This document shows, piece after piece, positions 1 through 10,386 of a DNA stretch of 64,000 nucleotides; the first letter of the stretch is position 1, and each line of letters begins with the position of its first letter. Location: the NCBI GenBank assembly GCA_017410455.1, contig JAFQQT010000017.1:62001-126000 (forward strand), read 5' to 3'. Origin of the DNA: Clostridia bacterium (GTDB lineage Bacteria; Bacillota; Clostridia; Christensenellales; Aristaeellaceae). The notes under the pieces were generated by a model. The model was not told the origin of the DNA, did not search any database, and was given only the letters and a program-made list of their open reading frames with translations. Position numbers and translations under genes: made by a program.

Positions 1-364
1 GGGCATCGGCCTGGGCCATCAGCTGATCGCCATCAGCCAGGGCGCGGCCATCCGCAAGCTGCCCTATGGTCACCGCGGCGGCAATCAGCCCATTGAGGAT
101 CTGAAAACCGGCGTGTGCGGCATCACCAGCCAGAACCATGGCTACGAGGTGGATAAGGAAAGTCTGCCGGAAAATGTCTCCCTGCGCTATATCAACCGCA
201 ACGACGGCTCCTGCGAGGGCATTGATTATCTGGACATGCCCGTGTTCTCCGTGCAGTTCCAGCCCGCCATGACCGGCGGTATCCATAATGGGGTCAAAAT
301 TGGCACCCACACCCTGTTCGACCGCTTTATTGCGCTGATGGGAGGTAACAAGGAATGCCGCTGA
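1..364 (+). CDS. carA: Carbamoyl-phosphate synthase small subunit, C-terminal part, glutaminase triad lost
   Basis: This is the 3' end of carA; the gene begins before the window and reads from base 2. The 120 visible residues are the second half of the class I glutamine amidotransferase domain, which normally hydrolyses glutamine and feeds ammonia to CarB. The family is clear from GHQ (14-22), GHRGGNQP (68-91) and TSQNHGY (125-145). All three catalytic positions differ from the family: the nucleophile elbow reads GIGLGHQ instead of GICLGHQ (Gly codon at 8-10), and the HPE motif reads QPA (260-268). Established knowledge: Cys, His and Glu form the triad, and loss of the Cys leaves only ammonia-dependent synthesis. 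I infer a structural or regulatory subunit. It overlaps the next gene by 10 bases, so the two are translated together. Confidence 0.9.
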   Translation, partial: GIGLGHQLIAISQGAAIRKLPYGHRGGNQPIEDLKTGVCGITSQNHGYEVDKESLPENVSLRYINRNDGSCEGIDYLDMPVFSVQFQPAMTGGIHNGVKIGTHTLFDRFIALMGGNKECR

Positions 365-3300
365 ATCCTTCGCTCAAGAAAGTTATGATCATCGGCTCCG
401 GCCCCATCGTCATCGGTCAGGCGGCGGAGTTCGACTACGCGGGCTCCCAGGCCTGTAAGGCCCTGAAGGCCGCGGGCCTGGAGGTGGTGCTGGTCAATCC
501 CAACCCCGCCACCATCATGACCGACCACACTTCCGCCGACCAGATCTACATCGAGCCCCTGACCCTGGAGACCCTGCGCCGCATCATCATCAAGGAAAAG
601 CCTGACTCCCTGCTGTCCACCCTGGGCGGCCAGAGCGGCCTGACCCTTTCCATGCAGCTGGCCAAGGAGGGCTTCCTGGATCAGCACGGCGTGAAGCTTC
701 TGGGCGCCAAGTGCGAGACCATTGAGAAGGCCGAGGATCGCCTGCTGTTCAAGCAGACCATGGAATCCATCGGCCAGCCCTGCATCCCCTCCGATGTGGT
801 GGAGAACCTGCCTGACGCCATCAAGCTGGCCGCGAAGATCGGCTATCCCGTTATCGTGCGCCCGGCCTTCACCATGGGCGGCGAGGGCGGCGGCATCTGC
901 CAGAACGAGGAGGAGCTGCGCGAGATCGCCGCGAACGGCCTGCGCCTTTCTCCCATCACCCAGGTGCTGATCGAGAAGTGCGTCTCCGGCTGGAAGGAGA
1001 TCGAGTTCGAGGTCATGCGCGACGCCAAGGGCAACGTCATCGCCGTCTGCTCGATGGAGAACATCGACCCCGTGGGCGTGCACACCGGCGACTCCATCGT
1101 CGTGGCCCCTGCGCTGACCCTGTCCAATGACGAGTATCAGATGCTCCGCCGCGCTGCGCTGGACATGGTGTCCGCCCTGGAGGTGGAGGGCGGCTGTAAC
1201 TGCCAGTTTGCGCTCAAGCCTGACAGCTTTGAGTACGCCGTCATCGAGGTCAACCCCCGCGTGAGCCGTTCCTCCGCCCTGGCCTCCAAGGCCACCGGCT
1301 ATCCCATCGCCAAGACCGCCGCGATGATCGCCATCGGCTACACGCTGGACGAAATTCCCAACGCCATGACCGGCAAACCCCTGGCGGGCTTTGAGCCCAC
1401 GGTGGACTACATCGTGGCCAAGGTGCCCAAGTGGCCCTTCGACAAGTTCGTTTACGGCAAGCGCACCCTGGGCACCCAGATGAAGGCGACGGGCGAGGTG
1501 ATGTCCATCGGCGTGAGCGTGGAGCAGGCGCTGATGAAGGCTGTGCGCGGCGCGGAGATCGGCTGCGACACCCTGCGCATGAAGTCCCTGCTGGAGCTGA
1601 CGGACGAGGAGCTGCTCGACCTGATCGGCCGCTGCACCGACCAGCGCATGTATGCCGTTTATGAGGCCATTGCCCGCGGCGTGAGCCTGGAAACGCTGCA
1701 TGACATCACCAGGATCGACTACTACTTCCTGAGCAAGTTCCAGAACCTGTGGAACATGGAAGCCCGCCTGATGCAGGGCAATGTCGATTGCGACCTGTAC
1801 ATGAAAGCCAAGAAGATGGGCTTCCCGGACAAGGTGATCGAGCGCCTGTCCGGCGAGAAGGTGCCCATGCACCGTGACCCCGTCTACAAGATGGTGGACA
1901 CCTGCGCGGGCGAATTCGAGGCCCAGCGCCCCTACTTCTACGCCACCTACGATGAGGAGAACGAGGCTGCGGACTTCCTCGCCAAGCGCGAGAAGAAGCC
2001 CTGTGTGATGGTGCTGGGCTCCGGCCCCATCCGCATCGGCCAGGGCATCGAGTTCGACTATGCCTCCGTTCACTGCGTGTGGATGCTCAAGAACGCCGGT
2101 TACGATGTGGTCATGGTCAACAACAACCCCGAGACCGTCTCCACCGACTTCGACACCGCTGACCGCCTGTACTTCGAGCCCCTGACCCCCGAGGACGTGC
2201 TGGGCATCATCGCCACGGAGAAGCCTGTGGGCGTGGTCGCGGCCTTTGGCGGCCAGACCGCCATCAAGCTGACCCATGCGCTGGAGAACGCGGGCGTCAG
2301 GATCCTTGGCACCTCCGCCGACATGATCGACGCTGCCGAGGACCGCGAGCGCTTCGACGCGGCGATGGAGAAGTACGGCATCAAGCGCCCCCAGGGTACC
2401 ACGGTCATGACCACCGAGGAGGCGCTGGAGGCCGCCAACAACCTCGGCTACCCCGTACTGGTGCGTCCCTCCTACGTGCTGGGCGGCCAGAACATGATCA
2501 TCGCCTATCAGGACTCCGACATCGTGGAGTACATGAAGATCATCCTGGCCCAGGGCATCGAGAACCCCATCCTGATCGACCAGTACCTCAAGGGCATCGA
2601 GGCCGAGGCCGACGCCATCTGCGACGGCGAGGATGTTCTCATTCCCGGCATCATGGAGCACATCGAGTCCTCCGGCGTCCACTCCGGCGACTCCATCGCG
2701 GTGTACCCCGCCTGGAACCTGACCGGCGCGATGTACCAGCGCCTGGTGGAGGTCACCAAGCAGATCGCCCTCGAATTGGGCACGCTGGGCCTGATCAACA
2801 TCCAGTACATCGTCTACCACAATGAGGTGTACGTCATCGAGGCGAATCCCCGTGCTTCCCGTACGGTTCCCTACATCAGCAAGGTGACGGGCGTGCCCAT
2901 GGTCGATCTGGCCGTGCGCGCCATGCTGGGCGAGAAGATCAAGGACATGGGCTACGGCACGGGCCTGTACCGCCAGAGCCCCTACTTCGCCGTCAAGGTA
3001 CCCTGCTTCTCCTTCGAGAAGCTGGCTGACGTCGACACCCACCTGGGCCCGGAGATGAAGTCCACGGGCGAGGTGCTGGGTCTGGGCACCAACCTGCAGG
3101 AGGCCATCTACAAGGGCCTGGTCGCTGCGGGCTACAAGATGCGCCACAACGGCGGCGGCGTGCTGATCACCGTACGCGACAAGGACAAGCTGGAAGTGGT
3201 CGACGTGGCGCGCAAGTTCGCGCAGCTGGGCTTTACCATCTTCGCCTCCACCGGCACCGCCCGCGTGCTGCTGCAGCACGGCGTGTACTCCGCCGTCGTC

Positions 3301-4383
3301 AAGCATGACTCCATGGTGGGCATGCTGGAAAAGGGCCAGGTGCAGTACGTCATTTCCACCTCCGTCAAGGGCCGCGACCCGCTGCTGGATTCCGTCCGCC
3401 TGCGCCGCAAGGCCGTGGAGCGCGGCATCCCGCTGTTCACCTCCCTGGACACCGCCTCCGCCCTGGCCAATGCGCTGACCAGCCGCTACACCCAGGACAA
3501 CGTGGAGCTGGTGGACATCAACAACATGCGCAAGGCCCCCAAGAAGCTGAGTTTCGTCAAGATGCGCGGCACGGGCAACGATTTCCTCTACTTCGACTGC
3601 TTCGAGCAGCAGGTGGACAGCCCCGAATCCCTGGCGGTGCGCCTGAGCAACCGCCGCACCGGCGTGGGCGCGGACGGCATCGTCCTCATCATGCCCTCCG
3701 CCAAGGCGGATTGCCGCATGCGCATGTTCAATGCTGACGGCTCCGAGGGTACCGTGGCCGGCAACGCCACCCGCTGCGTGTGCAAGTACCTGTACGAGTC
3801 CGGCCGCGTGGTGAAGAATGAGATGACCATCGAAACCGGCAGCGGCGTGAAGAAGGCCAAGCTCTTCATCCGCGAGGACACGGTGTATTCCGTGCTGGTG
3901 GACATGGGCTGCCCGGCCTTTGAGCCTGCGCAGGTGCCGGTCAAGCTGGACGGCGAGCGCGTGATGAAGCGCCGCGTGTTCCTGGCGGGCGAGATGCGCG
4001 AGATCAGCTGCATCTCCATGGGCAACCCCCATGTGGTGATGTTCGTGCTGGACGTGAACCGCATCAACTTGGAGCAGGTCGGCCCGATGATCGAGCAGGA
4101 TCCCATGTTCCCGGAGCGCGTGAACGTTTCCTTCGCGCAGATTGTGGACAAGAACAACATTGTGATGCGCGTATGGGAGCGCGGCATTGGCGAAACCGCT
4201 GCCTGCGGCACCGGCGCCTGCGCGGTGGCCGTGGCGGCCGTCGAGAACGGCCTGTGCAAGCGCGGCACCGACATCGACGTCCAGATGCCCGGCGGCACCC
4301 TGGTGGTTCGCTACCAGAAGGACGGCCAGGTCTGGCTCACCGGCGACGCGGTGATGGACTTCGAAGGCACCATCCGCATCTAA
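355..4383 (+). CDS. carB: Carbamoyl-phosphate synthase large subunit fused to a DapF-like domain
   Basis: This 1342-residue protein joins two enzymes. Residues 1-1057 are a full CarB: a first ATP-grasp half beginning IIGSGPIVIGQ, a second half beginning VLGSGPIRIGQ near residue 548, and a C-terminal MGS-like allosteric domain from about residue 935. CarB makes carbamoyl phosphate for pyrimidines and arginine. Residues about 1063-1342 are a full-length diaminopimelate epimerase fold: KMRGTGNDF, GVGADG, GNPHVV, ERVNVSF and GETAACGTGACA. There is no stop or frameshift at the joint, and the internal ATG at 3526 has no good ribosome binding site, so this is a real fusion. DapF normally uses two cysteines. 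Cys1284 is kept, but the one in CGNG is Ala1135 (VAGNATRC), so ordinary epimerase activity is doubtful. The start at 355 has GGAGGT at 341. Confidence 0.95.
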   Translation: MPLNPSLKKVMIIGSGPIVIGQAAEFDYAGSQACKALKAAGLEVVLVNPNPATIMTDHTSADQIYIEPLTLETLRRIIIKEKPDSLLSTLGGQSGLTLSMQLAKEGFLDQHGVKLLGAKCETIEKAEDRLLFKQTMESIGQPCIPSDVVENLPDAIKLAAKIGYPVIVRPAFTMGGEGGGICQNEEELREIAANGLRLSPITQVLIEKCVSGWKEIEFEVMRDAKGNVIAVCSMENIDPVGVHTGDSIVVAPALTLSNDEYQMLRRAALDMVSALEVEGGCNCQFALKPDSFEYAVIEVNPRVSRSSALASKATGYPIAKTAAMIAIGYTLDEIPNAMTGKPLAGFEPTVDYIVAKVPKWPFDKFVYGKRTLGTQMKATGEVMSIGVSVEQALMKAVRGAEIGCDTLRMKSLLELTDEELLDLIGRCTDQRMYAVYEAIARGVSLETLHDITRIDYYFLSKFQNLWNMEARLMQGNVDCDLYMKAKKMGFPDKVIERLSGEKVPMHRDPVYKMVDTCAGEFEAQRPYFYATYDEENEAADFLAKREKKPCVMVLGSGPIRIGQGIEFDYASVHCVWMLKNAGYDVVMVNNNPETVSTDFDTADRLYFEPLTPEDVLGIIATEKPVGVVAAFGGQTAIKLTHALENAGVRILGTSADMIDAAEDRERFDAAMEKYGIKRPQGTTVMTTEEALEAANNLGYPVLVRPSYVLGGQNMIIAYQDSDIVEYMKIILAQGIENPILIDQYLKGIEAEADAICDGEDVLIPGIMEHIESSGVHSGDSIAVYPAWNLTGAMYQRLVEVTKQIALELGTLGLINIQYIVYHNEVYVIEANPRASRTVPYISKVTGVPMVDLAVRAMLGEKIKDMGYGTGLYRQSPYFAVKVPCFSFEKLADVDTHLGPEMKSTGEVLGLGTNLQEAIYKGLVAAGYKMRHNGGGVLITVRDKDKLEVVDVARKFAQLGFTIFASTGTARVLLQHGVYSAVVKHDSMVGMLEKGQVQYVISTSVKGRDPLLDSVRLRRKAVERGIPLFTSLDTASALANALTSRYTQDNVELVDINNMRKAPKKLSFVKMRGTGNDFLYFDCFEQQVDSPESLAVRLSNRRTGVGADGIVLIMPSAKADCRMRMFNADGSEGTVAGNATRCVCKYLYESGRVVKNEMTIETGSGVKKAKLFIREDTVYSVLVDMGCPAFEPAQVPVKLDGERVMKRRVFLAGEMREISCISMGNPHVVMFVLDVNRINLEQVGPMIEQDPMFPERVNVSFAQIVDKNNIVMRVWERGIGETAACGTGACAVAVAAVENGLCKRGTDIDVQMPGGTLVVRYQKDGQVWLTGDAVMDFEGTIRI

Positions 4384-4395
4384 ACAAACAGAAGG

Positions 4396-4422
4396 GGAGA
4401 GTCGCGAGGCTCTCTCCTTTTT
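4396..4422 (+). terminator. Terminator after carAB-dapF
   Basis: GGAGAG (4396-4401) pairs with CTCTCC (4412-4417) and is followed by five T residues, a standard intrinsic terminator 12 bases after the fusion gene. Confidence 0.8.
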
Positions 4423-4423
4423 G

Positions 4424-4453
4424 TTGACTTTGTGTGCGGCTTTATGATATCCT
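4424..4453 (+). promoter_or_regulatory. Promoter of the antitoxin-toxin unit
   Basis: TTGACT (4424-4429) and TATCCT (4448-4453) with an 18-base spacer. The overlapping TATGATATCCTATCA tract could also be the antitoxin operator (inference). Confidence 0.5.
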
Positions 4454-4473
4454 ATCATTGGAGGTGAATGTCC

Positions 4474-4713
4474 ATGACGGCTGTTTCTATCGTGAATTTC
4501 AGCAAGAATGCGGCAGAATATCTGACCCATGCAGTGAAAAACCAGGACGTGATCAGTGTAACGACCGAGAACGGCACAGCGGTGATCATCAGCGAGGAGG
4601 AGTTCCGGGGCATGCTGGAAACGATCGCGCTTCTCAGGGCTGCGGGTATGCCGGAGCGCGTTGAGGAGGCAAGAAGCACCCCTGTGGAGGAGAGTGACGA
4701 CTTTGCCTGGTGA
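4474..4713 (+). CDS. Phd/YefM family antitoxin
   Basis: A 79-residue protein with the Phd/YefM pattern: an N-terminal DNA-binding part (VNFSKNAAEYLTHAV), then TTENGTAVIISEEEFRGMLET and a short acidic tail that would bind the toxin. Such proteins repress their own operon and neutralise a RelE/YoeB-type ribonuclease. The start at 4474 is preferred over the ATG at 4468 because GGAGGT at 4460 is 8 bases upstream. Its stop lies inside the beginning of the toxin reading frame (4703), the usual overlap in these pairs. The gene is intact although its partner is interrupted. Confidence 0.85.
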   Translation: MTAVSIVNFSKNAAEYLTHAVKNQDVISVTTENGTAVIISEEEFRGMLETIALLRAAGMPERVEEARSTPVEESDDFAW

Positions 4714-6351: not shown

Positions 6352-7491
6352 TTACTTCGTATTCTTAACCTCCATCCACATGGCCTCATAGACCGGGAGG
6401 AAGTCGGGGGAGATGTCGTGGAAGAACTGGCACTTGTCCAGCACAGCCTGGTCGGGGTTCTGGACGTGGTTGGCGGTGTATTCCTCACCCATCAGGTCGA
6501 TGGCGCCCTGGTTGGGGGTGGAGTAGCAGATGTATTCGCAGTTCATGCGGGCGATCTCGGGGCGGCAGAGGAAGTTGATGAACAGCTCCGCGTTCTCCGG
6601 GTTCTTGGCTGTGGCGGGGATGACCGCGCCGTCCACCCAGACGTTGGAGCCCTCGGCAGGCACGAAGTAGTCCAGGTTCTCGTTCAGGTCGATGGCGTAC
6701 ATCGCGTCGCCGGACCACATCACCGCCAGTGCGGCCTCGCCGGCGACCATCTTGTCCTTGGTTTCATCCACCTGGTAGGCCTTGACAACGCCGCTCTTCT
6801 TCTGCTCGATCAGCTTCTCCTTGGCGGCCATCAGCTCGGGCACGTTGGTGGTGTTCAGGTCGTATCCCAGGTACTTGAGGGTCACGCCCATGCTGTCGCG
6901 GATGGAGTCCAGCATGAAGACCTGCTTCTGGTACTGGGTATCCCACAGGATGGACCAGGACTGGACGGGATCGGGGATCATGGTCTTGTTGTAGAGGATG
7001 CCCACGGTGCCCCACATGTAGGGCACGGAGTACTTGTTCTCCGGGTCGTAGGCGGGGTTCTGCAGGTAGGGGATGGTCTGCGCGGCGTTGGGGACGTTCT
7101 CAAAGTTGATCTCGCGCAGCATATTGCCCGCGATCATGCGCTCGATGATGTAATCGGAGGGGAAGCACACGTCGAAGGCGCCGGGGTTGGCCTCCACCTG
7201 CACGATCATGTCCTCCACGGTGGTGAAGCACATGTAGTTGACCTTGATGCCGTATTCCTGCTCGAACAGGGTGATGACGGCGGGGTCGATGTAGTCCTCC
7301 CAGTTGTAGACGTTGACGACCTTGCCGGTCTGCGCGGGGACGGTGGTGGCCTCGGGCATGGCGGTCTCCTCGGTAACAGCGGGCACGTCCGTGACGGCGG
7401 GCTCGTCAGCCGGCTTGTCGGAGCCGCAGCCCGCCAGCAGCAGGGCGCAGAGGGTGACAACGATGAGCAGAGCAATCTTGCGGAGCTTCAT
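6352..7491 (-). CDS. potD: Spermidine/putrescine-binding lipoprotein PotD
   Basis: A 379-residue extracellular substrate-binding protein of a polyamine ABC importer. It has a lipoprotein signal with lipobox LLAGC (Cys22), then a low-complexity Pro/Glu/Thr linker. The mature protein begins VNVYNWEDYIDPAVI, the hallmark of PotD/PotF, with YSVPYMWGTVGILYNK and a C-terminal NFLCRPEIA block. It is the last gene of the regulator-potABCD operon, after potC with a 36-base gap. Whether spermidine or putrescine is preferred cannot be told from motifs alone. Confidence 0.93.
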   Translation of the reverse strand: MKLRKIALLIVVTLCALLLAGCGSDKPADEPAVTDVPAVTEETAMPEATTVPAQTGKVVNVYNWEDYIDPAVITLFEQEYGIKVNYMCFTTVEDMIVQVEANPGAFDVCFPSDYIIERMIAGNMLREINFENVPNAAQTIPYLQNPAYDPENKYSVPYMWGTVGILYNKTMIPDPVQSWSILWDTQYQKQVFMLDSIRDSMGVTLKYLGYDLNTTNVPELMAAKEKLIEQKKSGVVKAYQVDETKDKMVAGEAALAVMWSGDAMYAIDLNENLDYFVPAEGSNVWVDGAVIPATAKNPENAELFINFLCRPEIARMNCEYICYSTPNQGAIDLMGEEYTANHVQNPDQAVLDKCQFFHDISPDFLPVYEAMWMEVKNTK

Positions 7492-7527
7492 GGCGGTTCA
7501 TCCTTTCATGCATTCAGTTTTGGGGGA

Positions 7528-8295
7528 TTACTTATCCTCGGCGGTGCGGCGGTTGACGATCAGCAGCAGCACCAGCAGGGCGACAAACATCAGCGCGGAG
7601 AGCGCGTTCAGCGAGGGGTCAATGCCCTTGCGGGCGGAGGAGTAGATCAGCGTGGACAGGTTCTGCACCAGGGGAGAGGTGGTGAAGTAGGAGATGGTGA
7701 AGTCATCAAGGGACAGGGTGAAGGCCAGCATCGCGCCGGTGATGATGCCCTGCTTGCACTGGGGGATGATGACGTGGAACAGCGCGTACATGGGCGTTGC
7801 GCCCAAATCGAGGGCCGCCTCGTAGGTGTGGCGGTTCATCTGCTTCAGCTTCGGCAGCACCGACAGGATGACATACGGCGTATCAAAGGTGATGTGCGCC
7901 AGCAGCATCGTCACATAGCCGCGCTCCACCTTGGTGAAGATGAACAGCAGCATCAGCGAAATGCCGGTGACGATGTCAGGCATGGTGTTGGGGAGGTTCG
8001 TCAGCGTCATCATCAGGGCCTGGGGGCGCTTCTTCATCGCGTGGATGCCGATGGCGGCCAGGGTGCCCAGGACGGTGGAGACGATCATCGCCAGCACGGC
8101 GATGGACAGCGTGACGAAGAGCGCCTGCAGCGTGCGTTCATCCTGGAAGAGCTCGATGTACCAGCGCAGGGAGAAGCCCTCCCACTTCGCGCGGGACTTG
8201 CCGGCGTTGAAGCTCTGCACGATCAGCACGATGATCGGCACATACAGGAAGATCAGCACCAGAGCGAGGTAGCACTTTTTCAGCCACTTCATCAT
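7528..8295 (-). CDS. potC: Spermidine/putrescine ABC transporter permease PotC
   Basis: A 255-residue inner-membrane permease with six predicted transmembrane segments, starting [21 protein letters not shown]. The cytoplasmic EAA loop that docks on the ATPase reads EAALDLGATPMYALFHVIIPQ. The length is normal for PotC. Its ATG overlaps the potB stop by 3 bases (ATGA), which points to coupled translation. It pairs with PotB to form the channel. Confidence 0.92.
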   Translation of the reverse strand: MMKWLKKCYLALVLIFLYVPIIVLIVQSFNAGKSRAKWEGFSLRWYIELFQDERTLQALFVTLSIAVLAMIVSTVLGTLAAIGIHAMKKRPQALMMTLTNLPNTMPDIVTGISLMLLFIFTKVERGYVTMLLAHITFDTPYVILSVLPKLKQMNRHTYEAALDLGATPMYALFHVIIPQCKQGIITGAMLAFTLSLDDFTISYFTTSPLVQNLSTLIYSSARKGIDPSLNALSALMFVALLVLLLIVNRRTAEDK

Positions 8296-9293
8296 GCGAT
8301 ACCGCCTCCTTCGCCGTTGGGATCCGCCTTGCGCAGGATGGAGAGGCTGACCAGGATCAGCAGCATCATGATCAGCGACAGGGCGGAACCGACGTTCCAG
8401 TTGCCCTCGGTGAGGAACTTGGCCTCAATCAGGTCGCCGAACATCATCGTGTTGCCGCCGCCCAGCACGCGGGGGATGAAGAAGGTGGTGACGCTGGGCA
8501 TGAACACCATCGTGATGCCGCTCACGATACCGGGGATGGACAGGGGCATGGTGACCTTGTACAGCGTCTGCCAGCTGTTGCAGCCCAGGTCGGCCGCGGC
8601 TTCGCTCAGGCGGAAGTCCATCTTGGAAAGCGCCGTGTAGATCGGGAAGACCATGAAGGGCAGGAAGTTGTACACCATGCCCAGCAGCACGGCTTCGGAG
8701 TTATACATCAGCTGCACGCCCTCAAAGCCCAGCCATTTCAGGAAGGTGTTGATCAGGCCGGAATCCTCCAGCAGGCTCATCCAGGCGATGGTGCGCAGGA
8801 GGAAGTTCATCCACATGGGGATGATGAAGAGCACCACCAGCGTGGGGCCCAGCTTCATCTTGCGGTCGGCCATGATCAGCGCGGCGGGGTAGCCCAGCAG
8901 CAGGCAGATGACCGTGCAGAGGAAGGCCATCCACAGCGAGTAGACCAGCGTATCCACATTGACGGTGCCGCGGGTGATGTAGGCGGAGTAGTCCTGCCCG
9001 ACCGCCTCGCCGGCAGCCAGGATGGACTTGTTGGCGTTGAAGTTGGAGTCCCAGAAATTCTTGAAGTTATCCAGCGTGAAGGCGCCATTGGCGTCGGTGA
9101 AGGCGTAGTAGCCGATCAGGATCACCGGCACGACGGTGAAGATGATCATCCACAGCGTGTAGGGGGAGGCGAAGAGGGAGCGGTGTATGCCGCGGTTGCG
9201 CCGGATGGTGACGCCCACCATCGCCGCGAATGCAACAAGACCCACGCCCATCGCCGCCCAGGCCCACCAGGGCAGCGACATGTCAGATCTCAT
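8292..9293 (-). CDS. potB: Spermidine/putrescine ABC transporter permease PotB
   Basis: A 333-residue permease. The EAA loop is [21 protein letters not shown], and the typical PotB N-terminal segment [17 protein letters not shown] is preceded by an extra transmembrane helix ([20 protein letters not shown]), making it about 50 residues longer than E. coli PotB. An insert at about residues 85-110 ([19 protein letters not shown]) lies in the first extracellular loop. The start at 9293 has GGAGGAGG at 9303-9310; an ATG at 9281 is the alternative. It overlaps potA. Confidence 0.9.
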
Positions 9294-10386
9294 TGCTGGC
9301 AACCTCCTCCATCGGCTTCATGATGTGGATGTTGAAGGGCACGATATTGAGGCCGACCTTGCTGCCCTGGGGCTGCATGGTGGTGGAGTGCACCTTGAAG
9401 GTGTATTCGCCGGCGTCGATCATCATCTCGTAATGCACGCCCTTGAACAGCACGGACTTGATGGTGCCCACGATCTGGCCCACATCCTCGCCCACCAGCA
9501 TGATGTCCTCGGGGCGGATGACCACGTCCACCGGGGCGTTCTCGCCAAAGCCGAAGTCCACGCAGGGGAAGTTTGCCCCGGCGAAGCGCACCAGCTCATC
9601 CTGCACCATGGTGCCGCGCAGGATGTTGGATTCGCCGATGAAGTCGGCCACGAAGGCGTTGGCGGGTTCATCGTAGATGGACTTGGGGTCGCCGATCTGC
9701 TGGATGGTGCCGTCCTTCATCACCACGATGGTGTCGGACATGGTCAGGGCTTCCTCCTGGTCATGGGTGACGTAGATGAAGGTGATGCCCAGGCGCTGCT
9801 GCATGTTCTTCAGCTCCAGCTGCATTTCCTTGCGGAGCTTGAGGTCCAGAGCACCCAGGGGCTCGTCCAGCAGGAGAACCTCCGGCTCATTGACAAGGCT
9901 GCGGGCGATGGCCACGCGTTGCTGCTGGCCGCCGGAGAGGGCCTCCACGTGGCGCCTGGCGTAGCCCTTGAGGTTCACCAGCTCCAGCATCTGCTCCACC
10001 TTTTCGTCAATGACCTTCTTAGGGAGTTTCTTGAGCTTCAGGCCGAAGGCGATGTTGTCATACACATTCAGGTGGGGGAACAGCGCGTATTTCTGGAACA
10101 CGGTGTTCACGCGGCGCTTGTAGGGCGGCAGGGCGGCGATATCCTGCCCCTCAAAGAGCAGCGCGCCCTCCGTGGCGGTTTCGAAGCCGCCGATGATGCG
10201 CAGGGTCGTGGTTTTGCCGCAGCCGGAGGGGCCCAGCAGGGTCACGAACTCCTTCTTGCGGATGTACAGGTCGATGCCGCGCAGAACCGGCGTGCCGTCA
10301 AACTCCTTGGTGATGCCAATCAGGTCGATCAGGTGATCCTTGGTTCGGGCAAGAGCGATGCGTTCGCTGAGCTGTTCAGGCGTCAT
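9283..10386 (-). CDS. potA: Spermidine/putrescine ABC transporter ATPase PotA
   Basis: A 367-residue cytoplasmic ATPase that powers the PotBC channel. Walker A is GPSGCGKTT, the signature is [15 protein letters not shown], Walker B is [12 protein letters not shown] and the switch histidine is in YVTHDQEEA. The region after about residue 250 is the TOBE regulatory domain ([11 protein letters not shown]). I start it at 10386 ([12 protein letters not shown]), with GGGAG upstream. The N-terminal extension of about 20 residues before IGITKEFDG is slightly longer than in E. coli. Confidence 0.94.

Follow-up and report, generated by a model that had tools for sequence, protein, structure and literature searches.

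Why would the large subunit of carbamoyl-phosphate synthase (CPSase, CarB) end in the fold of a diaminopimelate epimerase (DapF), and what could such a domain do there? The question is raised by the window, i.e. the whole stretch of 64,000 nucleotides of a Clostridia genome analysed here, in which both parts lie in a single forward-strand frame running from the ATG at 355 to the TAA at 4383 (1342 amino acids). We read this frame through without any internal stop, as a preliminary description of the sequence had stated. The features of the locus are as follows:

2..364, + strand: 3' part of carA (CPSase small subunit), truncated by the window start
355..4383, + strand: carB::dapF fusion gene, 1342 aa
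355..3489, + strand: CarB part, residues 1-1045 (model matches and E. coli CarB alignment)
3193..3441, + strand: MGS allosteric domain, residues 947-1029 (Pfam)
3490..3549, + strand: linker between CarB and DapF, alike in length and motif in fused relatives
3550..4380, + strand: DapF-fold domain, TIGR00652 match over residues 1066-1340
3757..3759, + strand: Ala codon at the place of the first catalytic cysteine, residue 1135
4204..4206, + strand: second catalytic cysteine, kept, residue 1284

The CarB part, also described beforehand as complete, proved to be so: residues 1-1045 scored above the cut-offs of two CarB models (NF003671, 1432 bits; TIGR01369, 1387 bits), E. coli CarB (PDB 1bxr) aligned to residues 1-1050, and the two ATP-grasp halves, the oligomerisation domain and the MGS domain were all present. 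The glutaminase partner is encoded beside it by carA, whose end overlaps the start of carB by 10 bases and whose whole gene scores above the NCBIfam cut-offs. Upstream of carA lies argF (ornithine carbamoyltransferase; TIGR00658, 413 bits, above cut-off), and the cluster therefore reads argF-carA-carB::dapF. Since no other full carB was found in the genome (92% complete), the CarB part of the fusion is probably active in making carbamoyl phosphate. The effector residues of the MGS domain were compared by eye through a weak alignment with the E. coli chain 1a9x (41 bits), in which the positions of Thr977 and Thr1042 are occupied by Thr and a 2-residue gap falls near Lys993 (residue roles as given in an excerpt of PMC6245113).

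The window's genome is a draft of 93 contigs, which leaves room for the reading that the frame is an assembly error, or that an internal start or a cleavage delivers separate CarB and DapF proteins. Against this reading, the same junction was found in many genomes, including the single-contig G598, G622 and G192 and a cultured isolate (Sporotomaculum syntrophicum FB), and the open frames of relatives not cut by a contig end mostly measured 1314-1395 aa, with a few reaching 1594. Near the joint of the window, the preliminary description had seen no convincing internal ribosome binding site and neither did we, the ATG at 3526 having no Shine-Dalgarno-like word and a GTG having one of 4 nt. Across fused rows, a word of at least 4 nt preceded some in-frame start codon in 33/195 cases and one of at least 5 nt in 13/195, far more rarely than ahead of stand-alone dapF genes (29/34 and 22/34, respectively), for which a shorter span was searched. 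Two separate proteins are thus scarcely credible: the recurring junction and the scarcity of ribosome-site-like words rule out an artefact, an internal start and a chance join. The CarB-DapF fusion is real, one protein in which a DapF-fold domain follows a CPSase large subunit.

Fused frames were recovered from 16 of the 18 genomes of the genus, the window's own included (15/17 relatives), the two genomes devoid of fusion (G012 and G014) being 71% and 87% complete. They were also found in at least 71 of 150 genomes of the family (counted as open frames longer than 600 aa among the matches listed), in 24/81 genomes of the order and 24/148 of the class (own genome included in both, and the class count leaving out G258, which is cut by a contig end and may be one more fusion), and in 15/299 genomes of the phylum, these five samples overlapping and each containing the window's genome. 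Scanning named genomes with the junction alignment gave at least 474 confirmed stretches, some of them maybe unfused relatives; the best 80 of these at least 474 all matched across the whole 105-residue junction, with titles including Clostridia, Clostridiales, Oscillospiraceae, Ruminococcus, Saccharofermentans, Syntrophomonadaceae, Desulfoscipio, Bacillota and the cultured S. syntrophicum FB. The database search suggested with the preliminary description thus established that the junction is conserved in relatives of the genus, family, order and class, and a fusion peculiar to this genus is ruled out by its occurrence across family, order, class, phylum and named genomes.

Directly upstream of the fusion, carA was found in 100 of the 106 loci with enough flank (not all from distinct genomes). 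In two genomes (G340 and G278), carA, carB and dapF are neighbouring but unfused genes, an arrangement expected of a forerunner or of a later split. A quickly built tree of 230 rows required just 2 changes to separate fused from stand-alone domains, compatible with a single old fusion. Because many relatives keep both catalytic cysteines, the fusion probably began as a plain bifunctional enzyme, which would have arisen early in clostridial evolution, probably when neighbouring genes of a carA-carB-dapF operon were joined.

The two catalytic cysteines in question are Cys73 and Cys217 in the H. influenzae DapF numbering used below (Cys83 and Cys221 in C. glutamicum DapF). The DapF part of the window reached 280 bits with TIGR00652 (whole protein; 284 bits for the domain alone; cut-off 114.65) and matched 17 distinct PDB sequences, with 2otn on top. 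It had been described as a complete DapF fold, which is right for the fold and the family and wrong for the enzyme: its motifs, SEGTVAGNA and GETAACGTGA, place Ala at Cys73 and keep the second cysteine only, so that family models score the protein as DapF despite the missing catalytic base, which calls for caution. The second, stand-alone dapF that the preliminary description had proposed to look for does exist in the same genome (G000:C90:86068-86880); it is canonical, with both cysteines (motifs SEMCGNG and GETLACGTGA), and 48% identical to the fused domain. A meso-DAP dehydrogenase (Ddh, TIGR01921) is present as well, and a search for DapL with TIGR03540 and TIGR03542 gave no match above cut-off in this genome.

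All eight DAP-contact residues are present in the window's domain (N15, N74, N85, N159, N194, E212, R213 and T223 in CgDapF, from the list in an excerpt of PMC5296763). According to the same excerpt, C83A and C221A each nearly abolish the activity of C. glutamicum DapF, and Ala mutants of the eight contact residues also lose activity almost completely. With Ala at Cys73, a nearly inactive C83A mutant and eight contact residues kept, the window's fused domain is expected to be a pocket without epimerase catalysis. We reject a plain bifunctional enzyme as leading reading for the window's genome, where Cys73 is replaced by Ala and a canonical DapF is encoded separately; for relatives that have both cysteines we keep that reading. 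The idea of a moonlighting or regulatory domain placed after MGS, raised in the preliminary description, gains indirect support in this lineage, since a catalytic cysteine was lost while the DAP pocket residues were kept.

This division extends to the relatives. Among 196 distinct fused domains, 84 have both cysteines, 111 are devoid of Cys73 and a single one (L100) has Cys73 only (identical domains counted once, pieces below 180 residues dropped, and a domain called fused when at least 300 residues lie ahead of it; L173, which a contig end truncates, was reassigned to fused). Cys73 is replaced by Ala in 76 of the 111 domains, by Ser in 18, Gly in 16 and Pro in 1. The eight contact residues are all present in 84/84 fused domains with both cysteines, 95/111 Cys73-less domains and 34/34 stand-alone domains, and in 0/1 for L100; the other 16/111 Cys73-less domains have lost at least one. 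In L100 (genome G194), Cys73 is present, Ser replaces Cys217 and several contact residues are missing; Ddh but no stand-alone DapF was found in that genome, and the domain is perhaps decaying.

In a tree built by quick search from the C-terminal part of CarB (92 of the 189 fused rows), the state of Cys73 changes about 11 times by parsimony, and well-supported branches force at least 3 changes; such counts do not distinguish gain from loss, and we read the changes as losses because 34/34 stand-alone domains have both cysteines. In the window's own family (f1), many fused proteins (e.g. L048-L055, L106-L125) carry the MGS motif YTG in place of STS; those included in this tree group in a wholly Cys73-less clade, apart from the window's genus, perhaps through transfer or paralogy.

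Loss of Cys73 tends to go along with a second copy of the enzyme. Stand-alone DapF was found in 8 of 48 Cys73-keeping genomes, 41 of 55 Cys73-less genomes and 0/1 odd genome (104 tabulated genomes), with a Fisher p of 4e-9 that ignores ancestry; the 3 usable phylogenetically independent pairs lean in the expected direction, not significantly. The figure of 41/55 includes G165 (51% complete), scored as having a stand-alone DapF on pieces below cut-off, and is 40/55 without it. Restricting the comparison to genomes at least 90% complete gives 3/19 Cys73-keeping against 21/25 Cys73-less. The table leaves out G278 of the 53-genome set (not fused), four genomes of the 42-genome set (G393, which repeats the contig and position of G240, and G419-G421, which repeat the positions of G011, G016 and G010) and, from the 18 genus genomes, G012 and G014 (no fused match), G010 being taken from the 53-genome set; in the genus genomes the stand-alone copy was called by protein search and not by TIGR00652. 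Contig G221:C4 carries both kinds of gene (L066, L079), a fusion without Cys73 and, about 12-15 kb away, an unfused dapF encoding both cysteines.

Meso-DAP dehydrogenase makes meso-DAP without DapF. We sought it (TIGR01921) in 43 chosen genomes, made up of the full set of 15 in which the fused domain misses a cysteine and no stand-alone DapF was found, plus 28 others. Among the 14 Cys73-less genomes without stand-alone DapF, Ddh scored above cut-off in 6 (G339, G346, G286, G381, G407 and G410) and was not found in the other 8 (G095, G096, G020, G010, G116, G093, G332 and G363; 65-92% complete), two of which, G095 (92%) and G096 (91%), are more than 90% complete. In genomes at least 95% complete, where G264, absent from the 104-genome table as a duplicate row, is included, 16/16 Cys73-less genomes had stand-alone DapF or Ddh. 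Of 13 Cys73-keeping genomes of that completeness, 2 had a stand-alone DapF and 9 of the other 11 were tested for Ddh, which was detected in 6. In G191, G236 and G359 the fused domain was the sole DapF or Ddh found, indicating that it can be the only DapF of a cell. Cys73 thus tends to be gone where it is unneeded, yet Ddh is common either way, and the 8/48 Cys73-keeping genomes that also have a stand-alone DapF indicate that redundancy does not always lead to loss.

Did the Cys73-less domains then simply decay? In 12 pairs of Cys73-less fused proteins, pairwise dN/dS of the DapF domain ranged from 0.05 to 0.19 and that of the 480 CarB residues ahead of it from 0.02 to 0.11, against 0.03 and 0.04 for the DapF domain of two Cys73-keeping pairs and 0.01-0.19 in four stand-alone DapF pairs. 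The Cys73-less domain is, by these estimates, under purifying selection and not decaying, though freer than CarB. It combines the marks of a pseudoenzyme domain, i.e. a lost catalytic residue, a kept pocket and purifying selection.

Such constraint could come from a passive structural role, the fold, stability or oligomer of CarB needing the DapF fold and the pocket residues being relics or serving folding. This is the chief rival of a sensor function, though we hold it to be unlikely. The lost catalytic cysteine agrees with it, as do the loss of Cys217 too in 7 of 110 readable Cys73-less domains and a dN/dS above that of CarB in 11/12 pairs, but the eight contact residues kept in 95/111 Cys73-less domains go beyond the needs of a scaffold.

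The fate of the second cysteine bears on another alternative, in which Cys217 alone would carry out a slow epimerisation, an exchange or some other conversion of DAP or of a related amino acid. In the 111 Cys73-less domains, Cys217 is kept in 103 and replaced by Ala in 4 (S. syntrophicum among these) and Ser in 3, with a gap in 1, and its retention along with the contact residues is what such an enzyme would display. This alternative is nevertheless improbable, given that either Cys-to-Ala change nearly abolishes CgDapF activity (in the excerpt of PMC5296763) and that S. syntrophicum and three related rows keep the domain without both cysteines. The rows lacking both, with Ser and Ala in their place, are L138, L140, L143 and L196, i.e. 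S. syntrophicum FB, a Desulfoscipio MAG, a Syntrophomonadaceae MAG and Firmicutes UBA5766.

DapF is a dimer, and live and dead copies occur together in 41 of the 55 tabulated Cys73-less genomes. The fused domain could then pair with the stand-alone DapF, steering it or bringing it to CPSase, much as a prozyme steers S-adenosylmethionine decarboxylase (excerpt of PMC5201418). Such a partnership is very unlikely considering that fused and stand-alone copies are only 46-50% identical within the genus and that no stand-alone partner was seen in 14/55 Cys73-less genomes.

The reading that we favour, by a modest margin of belief over doubt, is that of an ancient and originally bifunctional CarB-DapF, in which the DapF half has ceased to catalyse and now serves as a DAP-binding regulatory domain next to MGS. 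Where a binding pocket outlives the catalytic residue and sits on the same polypeptide as an allosteric enzyme, a sensor is the best explanation. In E. coli CPSase, UMP inhibits while ornithine and IMP activate, all binding the C-terminal allosteric domain (excerpt of PMC6245113), and it is directly behind this MGS domain that the DapF domain is placed. According to this scenario, catalysis would have been lost mostly where the DapF half was redundant; in the window's lineage, as in others, meso-DAP would be supplied by a separate DapF, and in the window's genome also by Ddh. With its first catalytic base lost and its DAP pocket kept, the fused domain should no longer epimerise and would bind DAP (L,L or meso), a signal that may be passed to the neighbouring MGS domain and set the output of carbamoyl phosphate; we infer this loss of activity, this binding and this effect on CPSase from sequence comparison.

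Carbamoyl phosphate is a precursor of arginine and, by way of UMP, of UDP-MurNAc, to which peptidoglycan synthesis attaches meso-DAP. Since the UMP/UDP-MurNAc route meets meso-DAP, one signal could match two precursor streams. More tentatively, and with less confidence than for the window's own lineage, many Clostridia may possess a CPSase with a built-in DAP sensor, the fused DapF having turned allosteric several times independently by loss of the same cysteine, tying the supply of carbamoyl phosphate (arginine, pyrimidine, UDP-sugar) to that of the peptidoglycan/lysine precursor.

Enzyme fusions and dead enzymes acting as regulators are already known kinds. Compared with E. coli CarB (1bxr), the whole architecture is shared, including the C-terminal MGS domain and the carA partner, and the fusion extends beyond MGS by a DapF domain of some 280 residues. 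With DapF (TIGR00652), the window's domain shares a score above the equivalog cut-off, the eight DAP-contact residues and Cys217, but it differs by the Ala at Cys73, the fused CarB and a separate canonical DapF in the genome. HisZ, a histidyl-tRNA synthetase paralogue that activates HisG, is likewise an enzyme-derived regulator beside a live paralogue. The likeness lies in an enzyme-derived partner of a biosynthetic enzyme, control of CPSase by the DapF domain being only putative; HisZ is, by contrast, a separate subunit, of another fold and in another pathway. In the switch of human CPS1, the effector binds the C-terminal end of the CPSase (excerpt of PMC4655335), as proposed for the fusion, but the ligand is N-acetyl-L-glutamate and there is no DapF domain.

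No publication on such a fusion turned up when an open-licence PMC library was searched; as far as searched, neither this pairing nor the repeated reduction from two cysteines to one has been described, and domain databases may well list the architecture. CPSase is a classic allosteric enzyme under the control of UMP, IMP and ornithine. An additional arm responding to DAP would, if true, link nucleotide and arginine synthesis directly to that of the cell wall across a large bacterial group found in the gut and the environment. The natural fusions with both cysteines and those without the first provide a comparison set for the change from enzyme to sensor.

Additional observations concern the surroundings of the fusion gene. 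Opposite the fusion gene and spanning its full length lies an antisense open frame of 1434 codons (226-4530, minus strand), most likely a by-product of GC-rich codon use. Directly after the fusion gene lies a Phd/YefM-type antitoxin gene (4468-4713, plus strand; PF02604, 44 bits); no plus-strand ORF of at least 80 aa follows it before 5319, hence no toxin partner of that size was seen. Upstream of argF in the window's genome (L126, 5844-9266, minus strand), a NAD synthase gene (PF02540) is accompanied by genes that by eye resemble nicotinate phosphoribosyltransferase and nicotinamidase. Further along the window (6352-9302, minus strand) lie ABC transporter genes, of spermidine/putrescine type by look, with a solute-binding protein and one permease recognised by Pfam and a second permease by eye.
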